The translations under genes and the position numbers were made by a program. The notes beneath the pieces were generated by a model. The model was not told where the DNA came from. It saw only the letters and a list, made by a program, of their open reading frames with translations, and ran no database searches. DNA of 64,000 nucleotides from NCBI RefSeq assembly GCF_040932005.1, contig NZ_CP162414.1:957501-1021500 (forward strand). The letters are read 5' to 3'. Each line of letters begins with the position of its first letter. Position 1 is the first letter of the stretch. The DNA is from Aestuariibius sp. HNIBRBA575. Lineage in GTDB: Bacteria; Pseudomonadota; Alphaproteobacteria; Rhodobacterales; Rhodobacteraceae. This document shows, one piece after another, positions 19,091 through 34,388 of the stretch.

Positions 19091-20518
19091 TTACTCCGCA
19101 GCAAAGGGTTCAAAAATCGCAGGCGGCAGATCGTAGCCCCACAATTTGAACCGTTCTGAATAGTGGCTTCGCACGCCGGTCGCGGTGAAATGACCGATGA
19201 TTTTGTTGTCCGGCGTCAGACCAACGCGCTGATAACGGAACACTTCCTGCATCGAAATCACGTCGCCTTCCATGCCGGTCACTTCGGTGATCGACACCAT
19301 GCGCCGCGACCCGTCCTGCAGACGCGAAGCTTGCACGATCAGGTTCACCGCCGATGCGATCTGGGCGCGCATGGCTTTGATCGGCATTTCGATCCCGGCC
19401 ATGGCAATCATGTTTTCCAAACGGCTGATCCCGTCACGGGCGCTGTTGGCGTGAATTGTGGTCATCGATCCGTCATGGCCGGTGTTCATGGCCTGCAACA
19501 TATCGATCACTTCTTCGCCACGGGTTTCCCCCACGATGATCCGGTCCGGACGCATCCGCAGCGCGTTTCGCAGACAATCCCGCTGGGTCACAGCGCCTTT
19601 GCCTTCGACGTTGGCGGGTTTGGATTCCATCCGGCCCACATGGGTCTGTTGCAGTTGAAGTTCCGCCGTATCCTCAATCGTCAGGATACGTTCGTCATCG
19701 TCAATAAACGACGACAACGCGTTCAACGTGGTCGTTTTACCAGACCCCGTACCACCCGACACAATCACGTTCAGACGTGTGGACACAGCGGCCTGCAAAT
19801 AAGCGGCCATTTCTTCGGTAAAGGCGCCAAATTTGACCAGATCGTCGATGGCCAGTTTGTCTTTCTTAAATTTCCGAATGGACACCAGGCTGCCATCCAC
19901 GGCAACCGGCGGCACCATGGCGTTGAAACGTGACCCATCGGCCAATCGCGCATCCACATAGGGGTTGGATTCATCCACCCGACGCCCAACGGCCGATACA
20001 ATTTTGTCGATGATCCGCATCAGATGGCGTTCATCTTTGAACGTGATGTCGGACAATTCCAACTTACCGGCGCGTTCGATGAAAATCTGCTGCGGGCCGT
20101 TGATCAGAATGTCGTTGACGGTGTCATCTTTCAGCAGCGGTTCCAGCGGGCCAAGGCCCGTCACTTCGTTATAAAGATCCTGATTGAGGGTGGTGCGTTC
20201 TTCGCGGTTCAGCACCACACCCATTTCTTCTAGGGATTCCGCCGAAATCGCGGTGATTTCCTGACGCAATTCGTTTTCTGTGGCTGTTTCCAAGGCCGCA
20301 AGGTTCAAATTGTCCAAAAGCGATTTGTGCAGCTCCAGCTTAATCTCGCCGAGCCGCTCTTTGCGCTTTTTCTCTTTGTCCATTGGGGCTGCCTGCGCCG
20401 CCTTTTTGGGGGCGGGTGCGACGGGTGTTGCGACCTTGTCGGCGACTTCTGTGGCTTCCCCATTGGTGGGTTGGGGGGGCGCCGCAGCGGGTGCAGGCTT
20501 TTTATACTTGGAAAACAT
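19091..20518 (-). CDS. cpaF: CpaF/TadA: secretion ATPase of the Tad pilus
   Basis: 475 residues. An Ala/Pro/Lys-rich N-terminal 60 residues precede the ATPase. Walker [10 protein letters not shown] is at 255-263 with Lys261. An Asp box ([12 protein letters not shown]), the Walker B/His box region ([17 protein letters not shown]) and TTIHANS follow, as in GspE/VirB11-type hexameric ATPases. It powers pilin polymerisation from the cytosolic face. CpaE lies 15 nt upstream. Confidence 0.95.
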
Positions 20519-25304: not shown

Positions 25305-25493
25305 TTAGTTATATTGAACCAAAGCCTGATTTTCGACGCGATTTCCCACGCCTTTTGATCTGTCTGTTGCTGTCACAGAAATCATCGTAACCACACCAAT
25401 ACCTAACCCAACAATGGCGGCCGTTAACACGACCCAATCAACCGTTACAGCACCTGTTTCGTCACCGCGAAACCGCTGAAAAAAATTATACAT
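25305..25493 (-). CDS. flp: Divergent Flp-type pilin
   Basis: 62 residues from the ATG at 25493, with GGAG six bases upstream. It shares the leader pattern and core with the three tandem pilins (Gly14 before AVTVDWVVLTAAIVGLG), but its tail differs strongly (VVTMISVTATDRSKGVGNRVENQALVQYN) and its leader is MYNFFQRFRG. CpaA should cleave after Gly14. It lies between cpaB and the triple flp array, 252 nt from the latter across a terminator. It may be a minor pilin or a diverged paralog. Confidence 0.85.
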   Translation of the reverse strand: MYNFFQRFRGDETGAVTVDWVVLTAAIVGLGIGVVTMISVTATDRSKGVGNRVENQALVQYN

Positions 25494-25693
25494 TGGGATC
25501 TCCAATTATTTTACCCAGGCTTAGGGCATTGGACGCCGACAATGTGTCAGCAATCTGGTGCCTGATGGGTAAAACCGCGCCGTTGTGTTTGGTATTAGAC
25601 AGAGTTTTACTCAAATTGCGCTGGATGTGTCGTCTGATCGTGGCATGTTTTGCCGTGATATGGTCCTGACGGAGAACGTCATATCCGGGTAAA

Positions 25694-25745: not shown

Positions 25746-25934
25746 TTAGTTATAAGTTACGATGGTTTGGTTGGCCAACTGGCTGGATACTTTGGAACCC
25801 AGGGCTGTTGTCCCGTTACCAACGGATGTCAGAACTGCGATGCCGAGGCCAACGATTGCGGCTGTCAGAACAACCCAGTCAACAGTTACAGCGCCGTCTT
25901 CGTCGTTGCGGAAGTTTTTGATGAAGTTAAGCAT
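25746..25934 (-). CDS. flp: Flp pilin, tandem copy A (promoter-distal)
   Basis: 62 residues, protein identical to copy B. Basic leader MLNFIKNFRNDEDG ends at Gly14. The mature pilin starts AVTVDWVVLTAAIVGLG, with Asp at +5 and Trp at +6 where canonical Flp has Glu-Tyr. It then has one hydrophobic helix and a short Ser/Thr/Asn/Gln-rich tail. It differs from copy B by only two silent bases across the 213-bp unit. It encodes the major Tad pilus subunit, secreted by the machinery encoded next door. Confidence 0.92.
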   Translation of the reverse strand: MLNFIKNFRNDEDGAVTVDWVVLTAAIVGLGIAVLTSVGNGTTALGSKVSSQLANQTIVTYN

Positions 25935-25958
25935 GTGTTTTATCCTTCGGATCGAGAA

Positions 25959-26147
25959 TTAGTTATATGTTACGATGGTTTGGTTGGCCAACTGGCTGGA
26001 TACTTTGGAACCCAGGGCTGTTGTACCGTTACCAACGGATGTCAGAACTGCGATGCCGAGGCCAACGATTGCGGCTGTCAGAACAACCCAGTCAACAGTT
26101 ACAGCGCCGTCTTCGTCGTTGCGGAAGTTTTTGATGAAGTTAAGCAT
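25959..26147 (-). CDS. flp: Flp pilin, tandem copy B
   Basis: 62 residues with a protein sequence identical to copy A and the same spacer and GAAGGA ribosome-binding region upstream. Predicted cleavage is after Gly14, mature start AVTVDW. The near-total nucleotide identity with copy A points to recent duplication or ongoing gene conversion. It probably raises pilin dosage rather than adding a new subunit type. Confidence 0.92.
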   Translation of the reverse strand: MLNFIKNFRNDEDGAVTVDWVVLTAAIVGLGIAVLTSVGNGTTALGSKVSSQLANQTIVTYN

Positions 26148-26171
26148 GTGTTTTATCCTTCGGATCGAGAA

Positions 26172-26360
26172 TTAGTTATATGTTACGATGGTTTGGTTGG
26201 CCAACTGCGAGCTAACTTTGGAGCCCAGAGCGGTTGTACCGTTACCAACGGATGTCAGAACGGCGATGCCCAGACCAACGATTGCGGCTGTCAGAACAAC
26301 CCAGTCAACGGTCACGGCGCCGTCTTCGTCTTGACGGAAGTTTTTGATGAAGTTCAGCAT
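26172..26360 (-). CDS. flp: Flp pilin, tandem copy C (promoter-proximal)
   Basis: 62 residues, the first gene of the array, with its own strong AGGAGGGAC site before the ATG. The protein matches copies A and B except for the leader (MLNFIKNFRQDEDG, Gln for Asn10). At nucleotide level it has several more differences, mostly synonymous. It is probably the ancestral copy from which the other two were amplified, since it alone is joined to a distinct promoter region. Confidence 0.92.
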   Translation of the reverse strand: MLNFIKNFRQDEDGAVTVDWVVLTAAIVGLGIAVLTSVGNGTTALGSKVSSQLANQTIVTYN

Positions 26361-26724: not shown

Positions 26725-27561
26725 ATGACGCGCAGCTCATCAAACATGGCACTATATATACTGTATGGGCTCTCACTTGCGGTGGGCCTGTCTTCGGCTG
26801 CGTTGGCAGACAGTCACCGTTTGCAACCTGATTTCACCTTTCGCAGCGTCGGGGTCCCGGAACCGGGATCAACTGCGCCGCGGATCACCGTGCAAATCGC
26901 GCCTTCCGCGCCCAGCGGTCCCGCTGCGCCCAATGCGGCCGGGCAGGGGGGCGCCACCGCTGCTGCCCCTCAGCAACGTCCACCGGGCGAATATGATTGG
27001 TTCTGGGAAACGATTTCACCTGATGTGTCTGAATCCGGTCCGGGCCGATTGGACCCGGCCTTGGCGGCGATACGTGCAGGATCGGTCCCACAGCCGCGTC
27101 TGGCCACGCTGCAGGGGATTGCCAGCACTCATGGTCTGGACATTTTGCGGGCCACGGTGGGCACGGATGTGTCCCCAGCGCTGGCTCTGGCGGTGATTTC
27201 CGTCGAAAGTGCGGGCCAAAGCGATGCGGTCAGCGGTGCCGGGGCAGCGGGATTGATGCAATTGATGCCCGCCACTGCGGAACGGTTCGGTGTGACGGAC
27301 CGTATGAACAGCGCTGATAACATCAAAGGCGGCGTGGCCTATCTGGCATGGCTGATGGACCATTTCGACAAAGACCCGATATTGGTGCTGGCCGCCTATA
27401 ATGCAGGCGAAGGATCGGTGCGCGACAATTCCGGCGTGCCGCCTTATGCTGAAACGCGCGCCTATGTACCCAAAGTTCTGGCTGCGTGGTCTGTCGCCCG
27501 CGGTCTGTGCATAACCCCCCCGCAGCTGATCACCGATGGCTGCGTCTTTTCCGTGAATTGA
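26725..27561 (+). CDS. Lytic transglycosylase (SLT domain), secreted
   Basis: 278 residues. An N-terminal signal peptide of about 29 residues is followed by a Pro/Ala-rich linker (55-90). The C-terminal SLT domain has the catalytic Glu161 in VISVESAGQSDAVSGAG, then GLMQLMPATAERFGV and VLAAYNAGEGSV. It cleaves peptidoglycan glycan strands in the periplasm. Divergent from the flp array, it may open the wall for the Tad machine, as dedicated transglycosylases do for other secretion systems; that link is inferred from position. The next gene starts 11 nt after its stop. Confidence 0.88.
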   Translation: MTRSSSNMALYILYGLSLAVGLSSAALADSHRLQPDFTFRSVGVPEPGSTAPRITVQIAPSAPSGPAAPNAAGQGGATAAAPQQRPPGEYDWFWETISPDVSESGPGRLDPALAAIRAGSVPQPRLATLQGIASTHGLDILRATVGTDVSPALALAVISVESAGQSDAVSGAGAAGLMQLMPATAERFGVTDRMNSADNIKGGVAYLAWLMDHFDKDPILVLAAYNAGEGSVRDNSGVPPYAETRAYVPKVLAAWSVARGLCITPPQLITDGCVFSVN

Positions 27562-27572
27562 GGGATATTACC

Positions 27573-29015
27573 GTGACGAAACGCCCGCTGGTATTAGATG
27601 TGGACGGGACGCTGCTGCGCACCGATATGTTGTTGGAATGTTTTTGGGCCGGGCTGGGCAAAGATCCCATGGCGACGCTCAAAGCATCGCTGTTGCACTG
27701 GCGTGACCGCGCGCGGCTGAAATCGGAACTGGCCCAGATCGCGCCGCTGCGCACGGATTTGCTTCCGGTTGAACCCGAAGTCATGGAATTGGTCGAAACT
27801 GCCAAATCTGAAGGCCGCGAAGTGGCCTTGGCGTCAGCCTCTGACATGTCTTTGGTTGAACCGCTGGCCAAACATCACGGCATCGAACGGGTATTTGCGT
27901 CCGATGGCGATGTGAACCTCAAAGGCGACGCCAAGGCAGACGCGCTGGTCGCCGCCTACGGAGAAGGCGGGTTTGACTATGCCGGTAACGACATTTCCGA
28001 CCTCAAGATCTGGCAGCGCGGGGCGGGGGCCATTGTGGTCACCGATCCCGGTGATAGCGTCGCGAAACTGCGCCGTGATGGCCATGAGGTCACAGACATC
28101 AAAGGTGGCTGGGAACCACGCGATCTGATCCGCGCTATGCGGCCCCATCAATGGGTGAAAAACATCCTGTTGATCCTGCCGATGATTGCGTCGCATCATT
28201 TTGGTTTGGGGACATTGATGTTGGTGCTGTTGGGCATGGCCAGTTTTTCGGCCGCTGCATCCTGTATCTATTTGGTCAATGACCTGCTGGACCTAGAAGC
28301 CGACCGCCTGCACGTCAAAAAATGCAAACGCCCTTTTGCCAGTGGGGCGGTGCCCATATCGGTGGGCATGGCGGCCACATTGGCGCTGGGCGCAATCGCT
28401 ATTGGGCTGGGCGCATTTCTGGGCGGGCCGTTTTTGGTGGTGGTAATCACCTATATGACGCTGTCGCTGGCCTATTCGCTGAAACTGAAACGCATGCGCT
28501 GGGTCGATATCATGGTGCTGGCATCGCTGTATACATTGCGCGTTGTCGCCGGGGCGGCGGCCAGTCGGGTGGATGCGTCGATCTTTATGCTGATCTTTAT
28601 CTTCCCGATCTTTATCTCGCTGGGCTGTGTGAAACGCCTGACCGAATTGACGCTGGCGGTGGATGATGAACGTCTGCCGGGGCGCGGCTATGGCCGCCCG
28701 GATCGCCCGGATTTGTTGAATATGGCCGGGATCGGCATGGCGGGGGCCTTGGTGATCTTTTTCCTGTATTCATTGTCGGATCAGGCGCAGGTTCTCTATC
28801 CTGATCGCTGGCTTTTGTGGGTGGCGCTGTTGCCGATTGGCTGGTGGCTGTGGCGGATGATCCGGCTGGGCTGGTACGGAAAACAGGATTACGACCCAAT
28901 TGTTTTTGCGCTCAAAGACAAACGCGGCATGGGCCTGTTGCTGATCACATTGTCGCTGATGTTCTACGCCGCTGGCCTATGGGAGGTCTGGTTCGCCCGC
29001 ATTGGCGTGCTGTAA
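27573..29015 (+). CDS. HAD-phosphatase / UbiA prenyltransferase fusion, candidate decaprenyl-phosphate phosphoribosyltransferase
   Basis: 480 residues from a GTG at 27573 preceded by TTGAGGGAT. The first 180 residues form a HAD domain: VLDVDGT (Asp9, Asp11), ASASD (Ser88/Ser90 region) and YAGNDISDLKIW. The rest is a UbiA-type prenyltransferase with eight to nine helices, the first Asp motif NDLLDLEAD at 236-244 followed by KKCKRPFASG, and the second YSLKLKRMRWVD. In mycobacteria a UbiA enzyme (Rv3806c) makes decaprenyl-phosphoribose-5-phosphate and a phosphatase removes the 5-phosphate. This fusion could do both. That inference rests on the DprE1/DprE2-like genes converging on it. Confidence 0.75.
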   Translation: MTKRPLVLDVDGTLLRTDMLLECFWAGLGKDPMATLKASLLHWRDRARLKSELAQIAPLRTDLLPVEPEVMELVETAKSEGREVALASASDMSLVEPLAKHHGIERVFASDGDVNLKGDAKADALVAAYGEGGFDYAGNDISDLKIWQRGAGAIVVTDPGDSVAKLRRDGHEVTDIKGGWEPRDLIRAMRPHQWVKNILLILPMIASHHFGLGTLMLVLLGMASFSAAASCIYLVNDLLDLEADRLHVKKCKRPFASGAVPISVGMAATLALGAIAIGLGAFLGGPFLVVVITYMTLSLAYSLKLKRMRWVDIMVLASLYTLRVVAGAAASRVDASIFMLIFIFPIFISLGCVKRLTELTLAVDDERLPGRGYGRPDRPDLLNMAGIGMAGALVIFFLYSLSDQAQVLYPDRWLLWVALLPIGWWLWRMIRLGWYGKQDYDPIVFALKDKRGMGLLLITLSLMFYAAGLWEVWFARIGVL

Positions 29016-29034
29016 CAAAGACGACATAAACATC

Positions 29035-29075
29035 AAAACAGGGCGCGGAATAATTCCCGCGCCCTGTTTTGTTTT
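29035..29075. terminator. Bidirectional Rho-independent terminator
   Basis: AAAACAGGGCGCGG (29035-29048) and CCGCGCCCTGTTTT (29057-29070) form a perfect 14-bp stem. A T-rich tail follows on the plus strand (GTTTTGCC) and TTTTGATG on the minus. It separates the convergent UbiA-HAD and dprE2-like genes. Confidence 0.88.
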
Positions 29076-29093
29076 GCCTTTATGTCGGATGTG

Positions 29094-29831
29094 TCAGAAC
29101 GACATCTTCTTAAAGATCGGTTCGGGAACACAGCGGATTACGGTCATCACGATGCGCCAAATCCCGGCCGTATAGATCGTGTTGCGCTTTTTGCGCACCC
29201 CTTTGAGGATATCGTTGGCCACAGCATCGGCGGTGGTCATAAACGGCATTTTACCAAGTCCCCAGGTCATGGCCGTGTCCACAGGGCCGGGTTTGACGGT
29301 CATCACATGGACGCCTGAACGTCCCAAACGATTGCGCAGACCAGATAGATAGGTGGCAAAGCCGCCCTTGGCCGCACCATAGACGTAATTCGCGATACGT
29401 CCGCGATCCCCGGCAACGGATCCAACGCCGACGACCACACCTGCGCCGATTTCTTCCATCTGGGGGGCTATCATTTGCAGGAACCGGGCCGGGCCGGTCA
29501 AGCTGTCGATGACAACGCCGTCGATCAGCGACGGGTCCGCGTCGATGTCAGATTGATCCGGCATCGAGCCAACAAACACCGCTACATTGACGATGCTGTG
29601 CAGCCCAACAGCGCGATCAATTATGGGTTGGAACGTGTCCGCATTGCGCACATCCAGCGCGGCGGCTTCGGCAAATGTGGCCCCACGCGCCATGGCATCT
29701 GTGCAGCTGGCGTTCAAATCGTCCATATCGCGCCCGGCCAGGATCAGGGAATGACCCGCCGCGGCCAGTTTGCGCATAAAGGGGCGCGCCATTGAGGACG
29801 TCGCGCCGAGAATGATCCATGTTTCGCTCAT
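29094..29831 (-). CDS. dprE2: DprE2-like short-chain dehydrogenase (2-keto reductase of prenyl-phospho-ribose epimerisation)
   Basis: 245 residues, SDR fold. The cofactor loop is a variant (ILGATSSMARP, without the last Gly of the classical motif). The catalytic residues are Ser138, Tyr151 and Lys155 within GSVAGDRGRIANYVYGAAKGG, a block that I recall as typical of the DprE2 family rather than of general SDRs. DprE2 reduces the 2-keto intermediate to decaprenyl-phospho-arabinose with NADH. Its start overlaps the DprE1-like stop by 4 nt (ATGA), so the two are translated together. Confidence 0.8.
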   Translation of the reverse strand: MSETWIILGATSSMARPFMRKLAAAGHSLILAGRDMDDLNASCTDAMARGATFAEAAALDVRNADTFQPIIDRAVGLHSIVNVAVFVGSMPDQSDIDADPSLIDGVVIDSLTGPARFLQMIAPQMEEIGAGVVVGVGSVAGDRGRIANYVYGAAKGGFATYLSGLRNRLGRSGVHVMTVKPGPVDTAMTWGLGKMPFMTTADAVANDILKGVRKKRNTIYTAGIWRIVMTVIRCVPEPIFKKMSF

Positions 29832-31132
29832 TGTTCGTTCCTCAATTGCAGGCGGCGGACCATGTCGGTCTCATATGTTTTTGTGGGGTCGGCTTTGGCG
29901 ACTTCGGCGGCCCATTGGCCATATTCGGTGTACATCGCTTTGATGTTGTCGCCGCGCGACAGGGCGTCTTTGGCCAGATAAATCCGCCCGCCCGCCTTTA
30001 GGCATTTATCCTCAAGTTGCTGGATCAATGATTGCGCAGCGTCCCGCGCCGGGAAATCGACGGCCAATGTGTAGCCTTCCATCGGGAAAGACATATATCC
30101 CGCACGCCCCGGTCCCATCCGTTTCAGAACCGCCAACGGTGACGCGAGCCCGGAATGGGCGATCTTTTCCAGTATTTCCTTCAGGGCGTCGGCCTGATCC
30201 AACGGGACCACGCATTGAAACTGATGAAATCCGCGTTTGCCATAAAGCCGGTTCCAGTCATGGATTTTGTCCAGCGGAAAAAAGAATTCCTGGATCGGTT
30301 TGACCACAGTCCGCCCCGCCGCAGGCACCCGGCGATAATAGGCATTGTTGAACATTTTAACGATCGGGGCAGAGAGCGCGAAATTCGGCGCATCCATCGG
30401 AATGGTGCGCGATTTTTTCGGCTTGGTCACCAGACCCGCGCCGGTTTCGCCCTCTTCGACGATCCCACGGCCCAGTGCCGCGCCGCGCGCAGTTGCATCA
30501 ATCCAGCCCACCACATAGGTCGCATCGGATGCGTCCAGAATGGCCAGATGATCATCCCAGTTTTCGGCCCGCCGTTCCGTGACCATCATCACGTCGCCTT
30601 TGCAGGATTTTAACTGCATCGTCGCGCTGGCGATGATCCCGGTTTGGCCCAAGCCCCCAATCGTGGCCCGCCACAGCGCGTCATCGTTGGGGGTCACATC
30701 GCGCGACACACCGTTCTGGATCAGGGTGATCTGGGTGATGTGTTGACCAAAGGATCCTTCGTTATGGTGGTTTTTGCCGTGCACATCCATCGCAATGGCA
30801 CCGCCCACTGTGCAAAACCCGGTGCCGGGCATCACCATCGGCAGCCAGCCTTTGGGGGCGAACATTTCGGCCAATTCGCCCAATGTCATGCCAGCCTCGA
30901 CCTGCAAAAGACCGGTTTTGTCATCAAAGGACAGGATGCGGTCCAGCCGGGTCATATCGGTGATTTTGCCGCCGGAATTCAGCGATGCATCCCCATAGGA
31001 CCGGCAATTGCCCATGGCAGGCCCCTCTTTAGACAGGGCGGTCAGGGCGCGGGCGCGTTCGGGCCGGGCGGCATCGCCTTTGGCTTTGCGGGCGCGGCCC
31101 CAGCCAGCATATGTGATATTATTCCAAGTCAT
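29828..31132 (-). CDS. dprE1: DprE1-like FAD-dependent oxidase (decaprenyl-phospho-ribose 2'-epimerase subunit)
   Basis: 434 residues. The FAD-binding half shows GNCRSYGDASLNSGG (42-55) and VMPGTGFCTVGGAIAMDVHG (100-119), then KNHHNEGSFGQH and a GGLGQTGIIASATM segment, matching DprE1 closely. GGRIYLAKDA contains Lys388, which I align with the essential Lys418 of Mycobacterium tuberculosis DprE1. The position aligned with its drug-binding Cys387 is Ala357 (the spacing is 31 residues in both). It should oxidise the ribose 2'-OH of the lipid-linked sugar; the DprE2-like partner then reduces it to arabinose. The UPF0104 gene lies 9 nt upstream. Confidence 0.85.
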   Translation of the reverse strand: MTWNNITYAGWGRARKAKGDAARPERARALTALSKEGPAMGNCRSYGDASLNSGGKITDMTRLDRILSFDDKTGLLQVEAGMTLGELAEMFAPKGWLPMVMPGTGFCTVGGAIAMDVHGKNHHNEGSFGQHITQITLIQNGVSRDVTPNDDALWRATIGGLGQTGIIASATMQLKSCKGDVMMVTERRAENWDDHLAILDASDATYVVGWIDATARGAALGRGIVEEGETGAGLVTKPKKSRTIPMDAPNFALSAPIVKMFNNAYYRRVPAAGRTVVKPIQEFFFPLDKIHDWNRLYGKRGFHQFQCVVPLDQADALKEILEKIAHSGLASPLAVLKRMGPGRAGYMSFPMEGYTLAVDFPARDAAQSLIQQLEDKCLKAGGRIYLAKDALSRGDNIKAMYTEYGQWAAEVAKADPTKTYETDMVRRLQLRNEQ

Positions 31133-31141
31133 TCTACTACC

Positions 31142-32155
31142 TTAGCGGGCGAATTTGAGGGACATGCGTTCAGCAAAAGGAAAGACCAACAGGCCGATCC
31201 CAATGGCGAACCAAAGCGTGGTCACACGGATAATGGCCGTGGCCGGGATAGAGGTTTCAAGCGGTACCCCTTCGAGGGACAAAAGCGCGATCATCGCGGC
31301 TTCGGCACCACCAACACCGCCCGGCGCGCCCGTTAGGCCGCCTGCCAACGTGGAAAAGGTGAAGATGGCCAGCGCCATGGCGAAATGCACATCCGCCCCC
31401 AGCCAGACCAACAACAGATGAAACGCCCAGCCTTCGGCAGCCCAACCGATCAGGCCCAGCACAATGGCGGTGATCATCACAGGGGCCGAGGTAAAGGCGG
31501 TCAATGACCGCGCAGCGCTGCGAATGCGCGCCATCAGCCGGGGAAACAGCCCCGTGGCGCGATAGGTCAATGTGGTCAGCCCCGCCAACAGGCGTGGGCG
31601 TGTGGCAATCACCGCCCCCAACAGGGCCAGCGCGGCCACAGGAACCGCAAAACTGATGCCGCCTGTGCCCAGTGCAATCGACAGTGCAAGGATCAGCGCC
31701 ATTGCGGCCAAATCCGATGCGCGGTCCACCAAAACCAACGGGGCAGTGCGTTCGACCGGCCAACCGGTTTCGCGACGAAGCCAGCGCATGCGGATCAATT
31801 CACCCACCCGGCCCGGCGTGACGGACATGGCGAACCCACCCAGAAAATGGCGCAAATCCTGGATCAGTCCCGTTGGCAGGCCCAGTCGGCGGGCAAATAA
31901 ATGCCACCGCGCACCGCGAAACAGGTAATTTACCAGCGACAGCGCAAACAGGATCACAACTTGTGTCATGTTCAGTTTCATCAACTGCGCTTTGGTTTCT
32001 TCCCAGCCAGTGGCCAGTGCCAGACTGATCAATCCGGCCAAAACAAACCCAAACAACACTGCCAATAGGGCAATGTCACGCCAGCGCCGGTTTTTTTCGG
32101 ACGCGGCGGGCTGAGGCGCATGGGGCGGGGTGCTATGCAGGCTACTTGTGGTCAT
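31142..32155 (-). CDS. UPF0104/LPG-synthase-TM-family membrane protein, candidate lipid-sugar flippase
   Basis: 337 residues from the ATG at 32155 (a TTG at 32188 is less likely). After a Pro/Ser-rich cytosolic start it has about eight helices and the family motifs NYLFRGARWHLFARRLG, FAMSVTPGRVGELIRM and GGLTGAPGGVGGAEAAM. The domain occurs in the membrane half of lysyl-phosphatidylglycerol synthases, where it flips the lipid; no synthase domain is attached here. Cotranscribed with dprE1 and dprE2, it is a good candidate for moving the arabinosyl lipid across the membrane. This role is inferred. Confidence 0.75.
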   Translation of the reverse strand: MTTSSLHSTPPHAPQPAASEKNRRWRDIALLAVLFGFVLAGLISLALATGWEETKAQLMKLNMTQVVILFALSLVNYLFRGARWHLFARRLGLPTGLIQDLRHFLGGFAMSVTPGRVGELIRMRWLRRETGWPVERTAPLVLVDRASDLAAMALILALSIALGTGGISFAVPVAALALLGAVIATRPRLLAGLTTLTYRATGLFPRLMARIRSAARSLTAFTSAPVMITAIVLGLIGWAAEGWAFHLLLVWLGADVHFAMALAIFTFSTLAGGLTGAPGGVGGAEAAMIALLSLEGVPLETSIPATAIIRVTTLWFAIGIGLLVFPFAERMSLKFAR

Positions 32156-32219
32156 TGCGCTATGATTAGCGACAAAATGGGGCAACAATGTGAAGCTGTT
32201 TCGATTTTGGAAACGATTT

Positions 32220-32942
32220 TTAGGCTGGTTTTTGCCATTCTGACAGCATCAGATAGGCCGTATTGTTGTATTGGTCGCGAATTGCGGCATCCGGATGGGT
32301 CGATGGCGGTTCGTCAAAATGGGTTAGAATCAGGCCTTCGTACAGGAAAGCCTGAAAATAGGCGGTCAGGGGACGATGCCAATTATGGACCCTTATGCCG
32401 TTCCATTCGGCCCAATACACGTCATTTTCCAGATACCCGCGCAGGTGGATATCTGCGGTATTGGTTTTTGTGACGGTCCACCCGGTTTGTCGCGCTGCGG
32501 TAAAGAAGCCGGACAAATTGCCCATCAGGATATGCCCGCCGGGCCGCAATACGCGCTTTGCCTCGGCGATGGCGGCAGGAAAATCGGGGATGTCGATCAG
32601 CGACAGATAAAACACCACCAGATCGGTGCTGGCATCGGGCAGGGGCAGGTTTTCGCCAAAGGCAGATAGATATGTGCCCACAGGATCAAGCGCCCGGGCC
32701 TGTTCCAAAAGGGCCGGAGTGGGATCAATGCCAAGTGTTTGCAGCCCCGCATTCCGGGCCATCCGGCAAAACCTGCCTTCTCCGCAACCGACATCAACCA
32801 GATGTTTGGCCCCGCTGGCCCGCACCCGCGCCATCATCGGCTGATCCAACACATAGGCGCGGCTTTGATCACCAATGTCGCCCAATGTGGTGATCCAGGC
32901 ATCAGCCGATTTGGTCCAGCCATCATCATTTTGGTGTGTCAT
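32220..32942 (-). CDS. Class I SAM-dependent methyltransferase
   Basis: 240 residues. SAM-binding motif I is HLVDVGCGEGRF (DVGCGEG at 50-56), the acidic loop TLGIDPT follows, and motif III is KRVLRPGGHILMGN. The C-terminal part (WHRPLTAYFQAFLYEGLILTHFDEP) is typical of small-molecule methyltransferases of the UbiE/Methyltransf_11 type. It lies 64 nt upstream of the UPF0104 gene on the same strand and may be the first gene of the arabinosyl-lipid operon. The substrate is unknown. Confidence 0.8.
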   Translation of the reverse strand: MTHQNDDGWTKSADAWITTLGDIGDQSRAYVLDQPMMARVRASGAKHLVDVGCGEGRFCRMARNAGLQTLGIDPTPALLEQARALDPVGTYLSAFGENLPLPDASTDLVVFYLSLIDIPDFPAAIAEAKRVLRPGGHILMGNLSGFFTAARQTGWTVTKTNTADIHLRGYLENDVYWAEWNGIRVHNWHRPLTAYFQAFLYEGLILTHFDEPPSTHPDAAIRDQYNNTAYLMLSEWQKPA

Positions 32943-33067: not shown

Positions 33068-33691
33068 TTAAACAATGGTTGCCTGTGTGGCGGCCCGCAA
33101 TTCATCCTCGGTCACGCCATCGGCGGTTTCGACGATTTTCAAACCACCCTCAACAACATCCAGCACACCAAGGTTGGTGATGATGCGATCCACAACGGAT
33201 TTACCTGTCAACGGCAGGGTGCATTCGCGCAGAACTTTGCTGTCGCCATGTTTGTTGGTGTGATCCATGACCACCACAACGCGGCCAACACCTGCGACCA
33301 GATCCATCGCGCCGCCCATGCCTTTGACCAGCTTGCCGGGGATCATCCAATTGGCCAGATCGCCGTTTTCGGCCACTTCCATCGCGCCAAGGATCGCCAT
33401 GGCGATTTTGCCACCCCGGATCATCGCAAAGCTTTGGGCGCTGTCAAAATACGCGGTTTGGGGCAATTCGGTGATGGTCTGTTTGCCCGCATTGATCAGG
33501 TCGGCATCTTCTTCACCTTCGATCGGAAAGGGGCCCATGCCCAGCATGCCGTTTTCCGATTGCAGGGTCACTTCGACACCTTCGGGGATGTAGTTGGACA
33601 CCAAAGTAGGGATGCCGATCCCCAGATTAACGTACCAGCCGTCTTGCAGTTCTTGTGCGGCGCGGGCCGCCATTTGATTACGATCCCACAT
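33068..33691 (-). CDS. scoB: 3-oxoacid (succinyl-CoA:acetoacetate) CoA-transferase subunit B
   Basis: 207 residues. The catalytic glutamate sits in [10 protein letters not shown] (Glu46), and the N-terminal [18 protein letters not shown] and later [18 protein letters not shown] are diagnostic for subunit B. With subunit A it activates acetoacetate to acetoacetyl-CoA at the expense of succinyl-CoA, or a similar exchange, in ketone body or PHB breakdown. It follows scoA by 1 nt. Confidence 0.9.
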
Positions 33692-33692
33692 A

Positions 33693-34388
33693 TTATGCGC
33701 TCCTTGTGGTGCGTTGTTCGATGCGTTTTTCGTGATCGCCCTGAATGATCCGGTTCACATAAATACCGGGCAGGTGGATCGCATCTGGATCAAGCGACCC
33801 TGTGGGGACGATTTCCTCAACTTCAGCGATGCAGACTTTGCCACATGTGGCCGCGGGCGCGTTGAAATTGCGCGCGGTTTTGCGGAAAACCAGATTGCCC
33901 GTTTCGTCCGCTTTCCACGCCTTTACAATGGCCAGGTCGGCAAAAATGCCTTCTTCCATGATGTAGGTTTCGCCGTTGAAATCGCGGTGATCTTTGCCGT
34001 CGGCGATCACAGTGCCCACACCGGTTTTGGTGAAAAAGCCCGGAATGCCAGCACCACCAGCGCGCATGCGTTCGGCCAGCGTGCCTTGGGGGTTGAATTC
34101 CAGCTCCAGCTCGCCTGACAGGTATTGGCGCATAAATTCGGCGTTTTCCCCAACATATGAGCTGATCATTTTTTTGACCTGTTTGGTCTGCAACAAAATG
34201 CCGATGCCAAAGTCATCAACGCCCGCATTGTTGGACGCAAATGTCAGATCCTTGGTGCCCGCATCGCGGATCGCATCCAGCAGCAATTCGGGAATACCGC
34301 ATAGGCCAAATCCGCCAGCTGCAATAAACATGCCGTCCTTCAGCAGCCCGTCCAGGGCAGCGGCGGCATTGGGATAGATTTTCTTCAT
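33693..34388 (-). CDS. scoA: 3-oxoacid CoA-transferase subunit A
   Basis: 231 residues. Glycine-rich CoA loop [12 protein letters not shown] at 23-34, and the conserved block [29 protein letters not shown] site lies just before the ATG. The pair scoA-scoB forms one transcript. A long inverted repeat lies between this gene and topA upstream. Confidence 0.9.

Follow-up and report, generated by a model that had tools for sequence, protein, structure and literature searches.

A probable lipid-linked arabinofuranose donor pathway encoded beside the Tad locus in Rhodobacteraceae

Background

The decaprenyl-phospho-arabinose pathway of mycobacteria comprises Rv3806c, Rv3807c, DprE1, DprE2 and Rv3789. 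Pathways of this type are already known in Gram-negative bacteria, since systems from Pseudomonas paraeruginosa, from rhizobia and of the Citrobacter type have been described (PMC12369383, PMC5080398 and PMC11127046). The present work concerns a gene cassette in a 64,000-nucleotide stretch of the genome of Aestuariibius sp. HNIBRBA575 (positions 957501-1021500 of contig C1 in a genome of 3.52 Mb and 4 contigs; the whole stretch is referred to as the window and supplies the position numbers), in which a HAD-UbiA fusion gene faces genes for a DprE1-like oxidase, a DprE2-like reductase and a UPF0104 membrane protein. Homology, motifs and co-occurrence make it likely that the cassette is a donor pathway for polyprenyl-phospho-D-arabinofuranose, the product being predicted, and the polyprenyl-phosphate-arabinose pathway proposed in an earlier sequence-only reading of this DNA appears well supported by these lines of evidence. 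The novelty which that reading implied for a Gram-negative organism is smaller, given the systems just mentioned.

The three-component system of Citrobacter youngae O1/O2 consists of ORF15 (a HAD-UbiA fusion), ORF14 (MATE) and ORF12 (GT136), where ORF stands for open reading frame (PMC11127046). The window resembles it in its HAD-UbiA protein, with the HAD aspartate, an NDxxDxxxD motif and an RxxE motif, and in the lipid-linked pentofuranose donor, which is predicted here. It differs in that DprE1 and DprE2 homologues are present, whereas O1 has no epimerase and O2 the epimerase ORF13, in that the flippase candidate is UPF0104 (GtrA in a second cassette type) in place of MATE or SMR, in that the GT-C candidate belongs to GT87 and is unlinked, and in that no O-antigen cluster adjoins the cassette within the stretch that was read. 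With the mycobacteria it shares the same predicted order of reactions and DprE1 and DprE2 proteins homologous over nearly their full length, but here the 5'-phosphatase is a fused HAD domain and not Rv3807c, the proposed flippase is of a different family and the residue at the position of C387 of DprE1 is alanine. The pilin D-arabinofuranosylation system of P. paraeruginosa (PSPA7_6245-6251, TfpW) is likewise a Gram-negative gene set for a D-arabinofuranose (D-Araf) donor, but there the sugar goes to a type IVa pilin, and its transferase is encoded with pilA (PMC12369383); its UbiA protein is not HAD-fused, while in a P. syringae candidate a HAD domain is found at the C-terminus (PMC11127046). 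The rhizobial noeCHOP or noeCNHOP genes for Nod-factor arabinosylation are likewise alphaproteobacterial D-Araf donor genes, but the operon holds its own transferase, NoeP, the acceptor is a Nod factor and a separate phosphatase, NoeN, is suspected; in IRBG74 the system sits on the symbiosis plasmid (PMC5080398). What sets the present case apart from these is the putative flippase UPF0104, a GT87 candidate that is not linked to the cassette, and its distribution in the Rhodobacteraceae, and no DprE or arabinofuranose system in the Rhodobacterales appeared among the open-licence literature matches listed.

Enzymes of the cassette

An ORF check recovered all five genes of the sequence-only reading, the HAD-UbiA fusion converging on the DprE1-like/DprE2-like pair, UPF0104 and a methyltransferase, each in the place and orientation it had described. 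The fusion (27573..29015, + strand) is a predicted bifunctional polyprenyl-phosphate 5-phosphoribosyltransferase and 5'-phosphatase; the start at 27573 is a GTG, and the longest frame opens at 27486. A single chain carries both domains (PF12710, 35.5 bits, cut-off 27; PF01040, 67.3 bits, cut-off 34.2), and the protein scored 502.1 bits against NF006088, above the cut-off of 351, and 138.7 bits against the decaprenylphosphoryl-5-phosphoribose (DPPR) synthase model NF008978, of the Rv3806c type, under the cut-off of 207. Its solved relatives at E<=0.001 were two sequences, both named decaprenyl-phosphate phosphoribosyltransferase (PDB 8j8j, 95.6 bits). The motifs are intact: DVDGT with the HAD nucleophile aspartate at nucleotide 27597, NDLLDLEAD (NDxxDxxxD) at 28278 and KRLTE (RxxE) at 28632. 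Citrobacter ORF15 formed farnesyl-phospho-ribofuranose from phosphoribosyl pyrophosphate (PRPP) and farnesyl phosphate, and its HAD aspartate and NDxxDxxxD motif were needed for full activity while the RxxE residues tolerated alanine (PMC11127046). By its sequence the window protein belongs with the Citrobacter HAD-UbiA type, for which synthesis of polyprenyl-phosphate ribofuranose has been shown, and PRPP-dependent synthesis is predicted here.

The DprE1-like FAD oxidase (29828..31132, - strand), a predicted polyprenyl-phosphoryl-ribose 2'-oxidase, scored 388.5 bits against the DprE1 model NF053785, compared with 48.8 for the next model, and 257 bits against solved DprE1 in the PDB, compared with no more than 32 for generic FAD oxidases (xylitol oxidase, 31.6), the homology being nearly full-length. 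It keeps the residues aligned to Y60, H132, K134, Q334 and K418 of M. tuberculosis DprE1, which we take to be the active-site residues. The position of M. tuberculosis C387 is occupied by Ala357. The DprE1-type family is large, a protein search with DprE1 having given at least 7,772 matches at E<=1e-20 among at least 7,998 scored candidates, of which the best 120 were listed. The DprE2-like short-chain dehydrogenase/reductase (SDR; 29094..29831, - strand), a predicted 2-keto-pentofuranosyl reductase, had DprE2 as its top PDB match over nearly the full length (78.3 bits, next 52.8), and a 16-sequence DprE2 profile searched against the PDB gave 125.3 bits for DprE2 and 69 for the next match. The two genes overlap by 4 bp and a 9-bp gap separates UPF0104 from DprE1; both, with UPF0104 and the methyltransferase, lie on the - strand and run towards the + strand HAD-UbiA gene.

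In the proposed pathway the UbiA domain would transfer ribose-5-phosphate from PRPP to polyprenyl phosphate and the fused HAD domain would strip off the 5-phosphate, after which DprE1 would oxidise C2 and DprE2 would reduce the product to the arabino epimer, giving polyprenyl-phospho-beta-D-arabinofuranose, the polyprenyl carrier probably being undecaprenyl phosphate. The lipid would then be flipped to the periplasm by UPF0104, or by GtrA in a second type of cassette, and a GT-C transferase, for which two GT87 genes are the best candidates, would move D-Araf to an envelope acceptor. Homology and motifs underlie the enzyme identities, and from the whole we infer the role of the flippase, that of GT87 and the product.

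Distribution and gene neighbourhood

A first survey covered 61 genomes, 37 of the window's family and 24 outside it. DprE1 orthologues of at least 280 bits were found in 11, all within the family (11/37), and the DprE1 matches in another 12 were below 33 bits; full-length HAD-UbiA occurred in the same 11 genomes and in G019, in which the contig begins within or just before DprE2. A wider survey of 295 Rhodobacteraceae genomes from 294 genera, with thresholds of E<=1e-30 for DprE1 and E<=1e-20 for HAD-UbiA, matched DprE1 in 106 and HAD-UbiA in 118, some of the latter matches spanning the UbiA part alone. Both were matched in 99 genomes, DprE1 only in 7, HAD-UbiA only in 19 (including G019, at its contig edge) and neither in 170. 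The seven DprE1-only genomes (G103, G141, G175, G182, G184, G241 and G293) are expected to have a divergent synthase or a copy that was missed.

The neighbourhood comparison that the sequence-only reading had called for was made over 62 named Rhodobacteraceae loci, each count taking in only loci with a contig that reaches across the span in question. A common order is topA-atoD-atoA-UPF0104-dprE1-dprE2, followed by HAD-UbiA in reverse, slt, cpaB and rcpA. DprE2 follows DprE1 in 59/59 loci and UPF0104 precedes DprE1 in 55/59 (in one of the 55, L105, as a fragment only), HAD-UbiA is found at the site in 28/51, and the flanking genes recur at comparable loci (topA 43/47, atoA 49/55, slt 40/45, cpaB 37/42 and rcpA 33/40). 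HAD-UbiA lies away from the DprE site in G007 and G024. The gene grouping is not due to chance. The class I S-adenosylmethionine methyltransferase (32220..32942, - strand; Methyltransf_11, 71.7 bits) was found at this place in 1/56 loci, that of the near-identical L047, an uncultured Rhodobacteraceae isolate with the same genes at 99-100% protein identity; it was rejected as a conserved pathway member and is probably a strain-specific neighbour.

Sites without the cassette were examined in 16 Tad neighbourhoods, drawn from the 20 family genomes that lack DprE1 and have an RcpA match (G019 aside; G004, G008, G017 and G023 are not among the 16), and no cassette genes were found in them at E<=1e-8. 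In 10 of the 16 stretches the atoA and slt alignments end 18-387 bp apart, eight of the 10 within 109 bp; in the other six the atoA and/or slt marker was absent, two of these stretches being short. The slt gene adjoins the Tad genes whether the cassette is present or not, and the cassette is thus a presence/absence module at one site in a stable stretch of chromosome.

The flippase candidate and a second cassette type

The UPF0104 / LPG_synthase_TM membrane protein (31142..32188, - strand) is a candidate lipid-linked sugar flippase, scoring 148.7 bits against PF03706 and 91.9 against TIGR00374, above the cut-off of 43.2. Its likely start is the ATG at 32155, the methionine of which is kept in at least 90% of 20 aligned relatives (alignment A2; L062 and L086 were omitted because the chosen stretch held a stop, and L077, L097 and L101 by choice). 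Orthologues were found in 10 of the 61 genomes of the first survey, every one of them DprE1-positive. Matches to PomA among solved structures were taken as chance.

A second type of cassette was indicated by a more distant DprE1 (259-319 bits) in 30 of the 106 DprE1-positive family genomes. It was examined in 20 of the 30, and HAD-UbiA, DprE1 and DprE2 were grouped on one strand in 20/20 (DprE2 of L157 being fragmentary), with a GtrA-like gene between HAD-UbiA and DprE1 in 18/20; the GtrA copy of a 21st such genome, G011, scored 48.4 bits against PF04138. For lipid-linked glucose, GtrA has been proposed as a flippase (PMC11127046), so that UPF0104 would plausibly hold in the Tad-site cassette the place that GtrA has in the second type. 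That UPF0104 acts as a flippase of the lipid-linked sugar is judged fairly probable.

Candidate arabinosyltransferases

The sequence-only reading was right that no arabinosyltransferase is visible in the window, and candidates lie elsewhere in the genome: of the two GT-C families tested, PMT_2 gave one match there and GT87 gave two, at E<=0.001. The two GT87 genes (C1:771958-773226 and C1:775070-776299) are outside the window, between genes named by eye as carB and aspS, and their proteins scored 60.4 and 73.8 bits against Pfam GT87 (cut-off 25). A profile, A1, of seven carB-type proteins, searched over the 295 family genomes with a cut-off of E 1e-10, found 51 carriers, the weakest listed match being at E 1e-37. 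Fifty of the 51 are DprE1-positive, and the 51st, the only carrier among 189 DprE1-negative genomes, is G019, where DprE2 and HAD-UbiA lie at the edge of a contig. The odds ratio for the link to DprE1 is 168 for GT87 and 1.85 (p 0.017) for PMT_2, which was set aside as a transferase because of this weak link (49/106 DprE1-positive vs 60/189 DprE1-negative genomes). The association does not stem from linkage to a single cassette, since the second type is present in six of the GT87 carriers. GT87 adjoins carB in 17 of a set of 20 carriers taken from the 51, stretches of six more carriers having also been read. The only solved relative of A1 at E<=0.001 is 9dm5 (E 6e-6), named a mannosyltransferase, the residue numbers of which fit PimE, a polyprenyl-phosphomannose-dependent enzyme (PMC12041525); the GT87 residues aligned to the essential Y92, K195 and W319 of PimE are invariant in the seven A1 proteins. 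The two carB-aspS genes, linked to the pathway by phylogenetic profile only, would seem to be the best transferase candidates in this genome, and a role in this step is judged slightly more likely than not.

A number of observations temper this assignment. The essential Q163 of PimE is one column off an invariant glutamine in the GT87 alignment, the position of H321 varies in A1, and the alignment does not reach the catalytic D58 (nor Y62). The carB-type GT87 is missing from 56 of the 106 DprE1-positive genomes, so that another transferase must serve there, and DprE1-negative G004 carries two other GT87 genes. The Fisher tests of co-occurrence behind the odds ratios take no account of phylogeny, and a tree-aware test of GT87 against DprE (29 genomes, the single gene RcpA, G019 scored as DprE-positive) had three supported independent pairs, none contrary and none significant.

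No GT-C protein was recognised by eye, the method used in place of a profile search, among the 45 largest ORF clusters of 72 loci, nor in the stretches read near the stand-alone HAD-UbiA genes of G007 and G024. G024, which is DprE1-positive and has no carB-type GT87, carries its stand-alone HAD-UbiA at C38:7881-9272 and a PMT_2 gene at 19610-20089, about 10 kb off and just beyond the stretch read; this PMT_2 gene is a possible alternative transferase. At locus L131 (G019:C69, 7639-11617) a GT87 gene stands in one group with genes for a UbiA protein that lacks HAD, for a small transporter of the EamA type and for an NAD-dependent epimerase, and the group resembles a further, distinct three-component pentofuranose system.

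Alternative explanations

Several results weigh against a D-Araf pathway as described above. The scores of the DprE1-like protein and the DprE2-like protein (150.1 bits against NF053786) are under the curated cut-offs of 500 and 250 respectively, and the latter is outscored by PRK07102, an unnamed SDR model (243.1 bits, own cut-off 267); for these reasons the names DprE1-like and DprE2-like are kept. The profile check put forward in the sequence-only reading, that the DprE models should outscore generic ones, is thus borne out for DprE1 and not for DprE2. In the searches of the 295 genomes for DprE1, GT87 and HAD-UbiA, scoring was limited to about the top 5-6 first-look candidates of each genome, and copies can be missed. 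The scores would also fit another lipid-linked pentofuranose, either because DprE1 and DprE2 act on polyprenyl-phospho-ribofuranose to give a different epimer or a keto-sugar, or because the ribofuranose (Ribf) donor is used as such. The 19 genomes with a HAD-UbiA match and no DprE1, some of the matches being partial, suggest that Ribf-only use may exist, and Citrobacter O2 makes xylofuranose via another epimerase (PMC11127046). Such a product is nevertheless considered unlikely, as the five aligned DprE1 residues are kept, DprE2 follows DprE1 at every testable locus, and DprE1/DprE2 homologues are reported in systems that contain arabinofuranose (PMC11127046); the finding of GT87 in 0/18 genomes that match HAD-UbiA and lack DprE1 (G019 left out) also hints at an arabinofuranose rather than a Ribf donor. 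That the three are an ordinary UbiA prenyltransferase, an FAD oxidase and an SDR from unrelated metabolism, placed together by chance, is highly improbable, for while all three come from large superfamilies, the specific matches of DprE1 and HAD-UbiA are far above the generic ones and co-occurrence over the 295 genomes is strong.

The donor pathway might be correctly assigned and its target be the Tad (Flp) pilin, to which the nearness of the Tad locus had been taken as a hint in the sequence-only reading. The Tad genes cpaB and rcpA do accompany the cassette at the frequencies given above, and the pilin of P. paraeruginosa carries D-Araf (PMC12369383), but the slt-Tad-atoDA order also exists without the cassette, so that closeness to Tad is no argument for a pilin target. 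In addition, no Tad marker was found near the second-type cassettes in the 20 stretches read (up to 19.5 kb), the GT87 candidate usually adjoins carB, and the pilin that TfpW modifies in P. paraeruginosa is of type IVa, not of the Tad kind (PMC12369383), all of which makes the Tad pilin an improbable target. Rather more weight is given to the view, still a doubtful one, that UPF0104 is an unrelated lipid transporter kept in the operon. UPF0104 is absent beside DprE1 in 4/59 testable loci; named loci with DprE1 and DprE2 and without UPF0104 are L074, L095, L096 and L106, three of which are from Celeribacter. It is only a fragment in G036, and two UPF0104 matches have an in-frame stop. No solved relative of UPF0104 was found by sequence at E<0.07, and the weak matches to MprF (30.5 bits) and to a glucosaminyl-phosphatidylglycerol flippase model (24.9 bits), both far below cut-off, point to phospholipids. 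Set against this are the confinement of UPF0104 orthologues to DprE1-positive genomes in the first survey, their position 9 bp from DprE1 here and the presence of GtrA, a proposed flippase family, in the second-type cassettes, and a role in flipping the lipid-linked sugar is preferred.

Other features of the site

On one side the cassette is bounded by slt, a lytic transglycosylase (SLT) gene (26725..27561, + strand; PF01464, 91.4 bits), which is a flank marker rather than a pathway enzyme and is separated by 11 bp from HAD-UbiA, its downstream neighbour on the + strand, and on the other by genes named by eye as atoA/atoD-type CoA-transferase genes (33068..34388, - strand). Between the convergent units a consensus scan found a bidirectional intrinsic-terminator-like stem-loop (29034..29071, both strands) of 15-17 pairs, 10 of them GC, with T-rich tails on either strand. 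Five relatives have genes between DprE2 and HAD-UbiA which, judged by eye, looked unrelated: a cardiolipin-synthase-like gene in L052, CoA-transferase-like genes in L053 and L109, one resembling a radical-SAM aminomutase in L055 and a transposase-like gene in L056. Elsewhere in the window, three tandem genes named by eye as Flp-pilin-like (62 aa; 25746-26360, - strand) recur on a 213-bp unit with 94% matches; two of the three proteins are identical, and a related 66-aa ORF lies at 25305-25505.

Significance

As a tentative overall picture, about one third of the sampled Rhodobacteraceae genera may make polyprenyl-phospho-D-arabinofuranose, and in about half of these the system may be a two-locus one, in which UPF0104 (a flippase family new to this task) or GtrA flips the lipid and a usually carB-linked GT87 protein, the solved relative of which is a mannosyltransferase, arabinofuranosylates an undescribed envelope glycan. 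D-arabinofuranose would be predicted in the envelope of carriers, for example species of Octadecabacter, Celeribacter and Pacificibacter, and the new candidates for flippase and GT-C transferase would be open to testing in harmless marine strains. A native DprE1 with alanine at the C387 position would be useful comparative material. If the pathway is as proposed, one best known as a tuberculosis drug target would be a common but patchy trait (106/295 genomes, with at least six changes of state on the 29-genome tree of one gene) of a major marine family.

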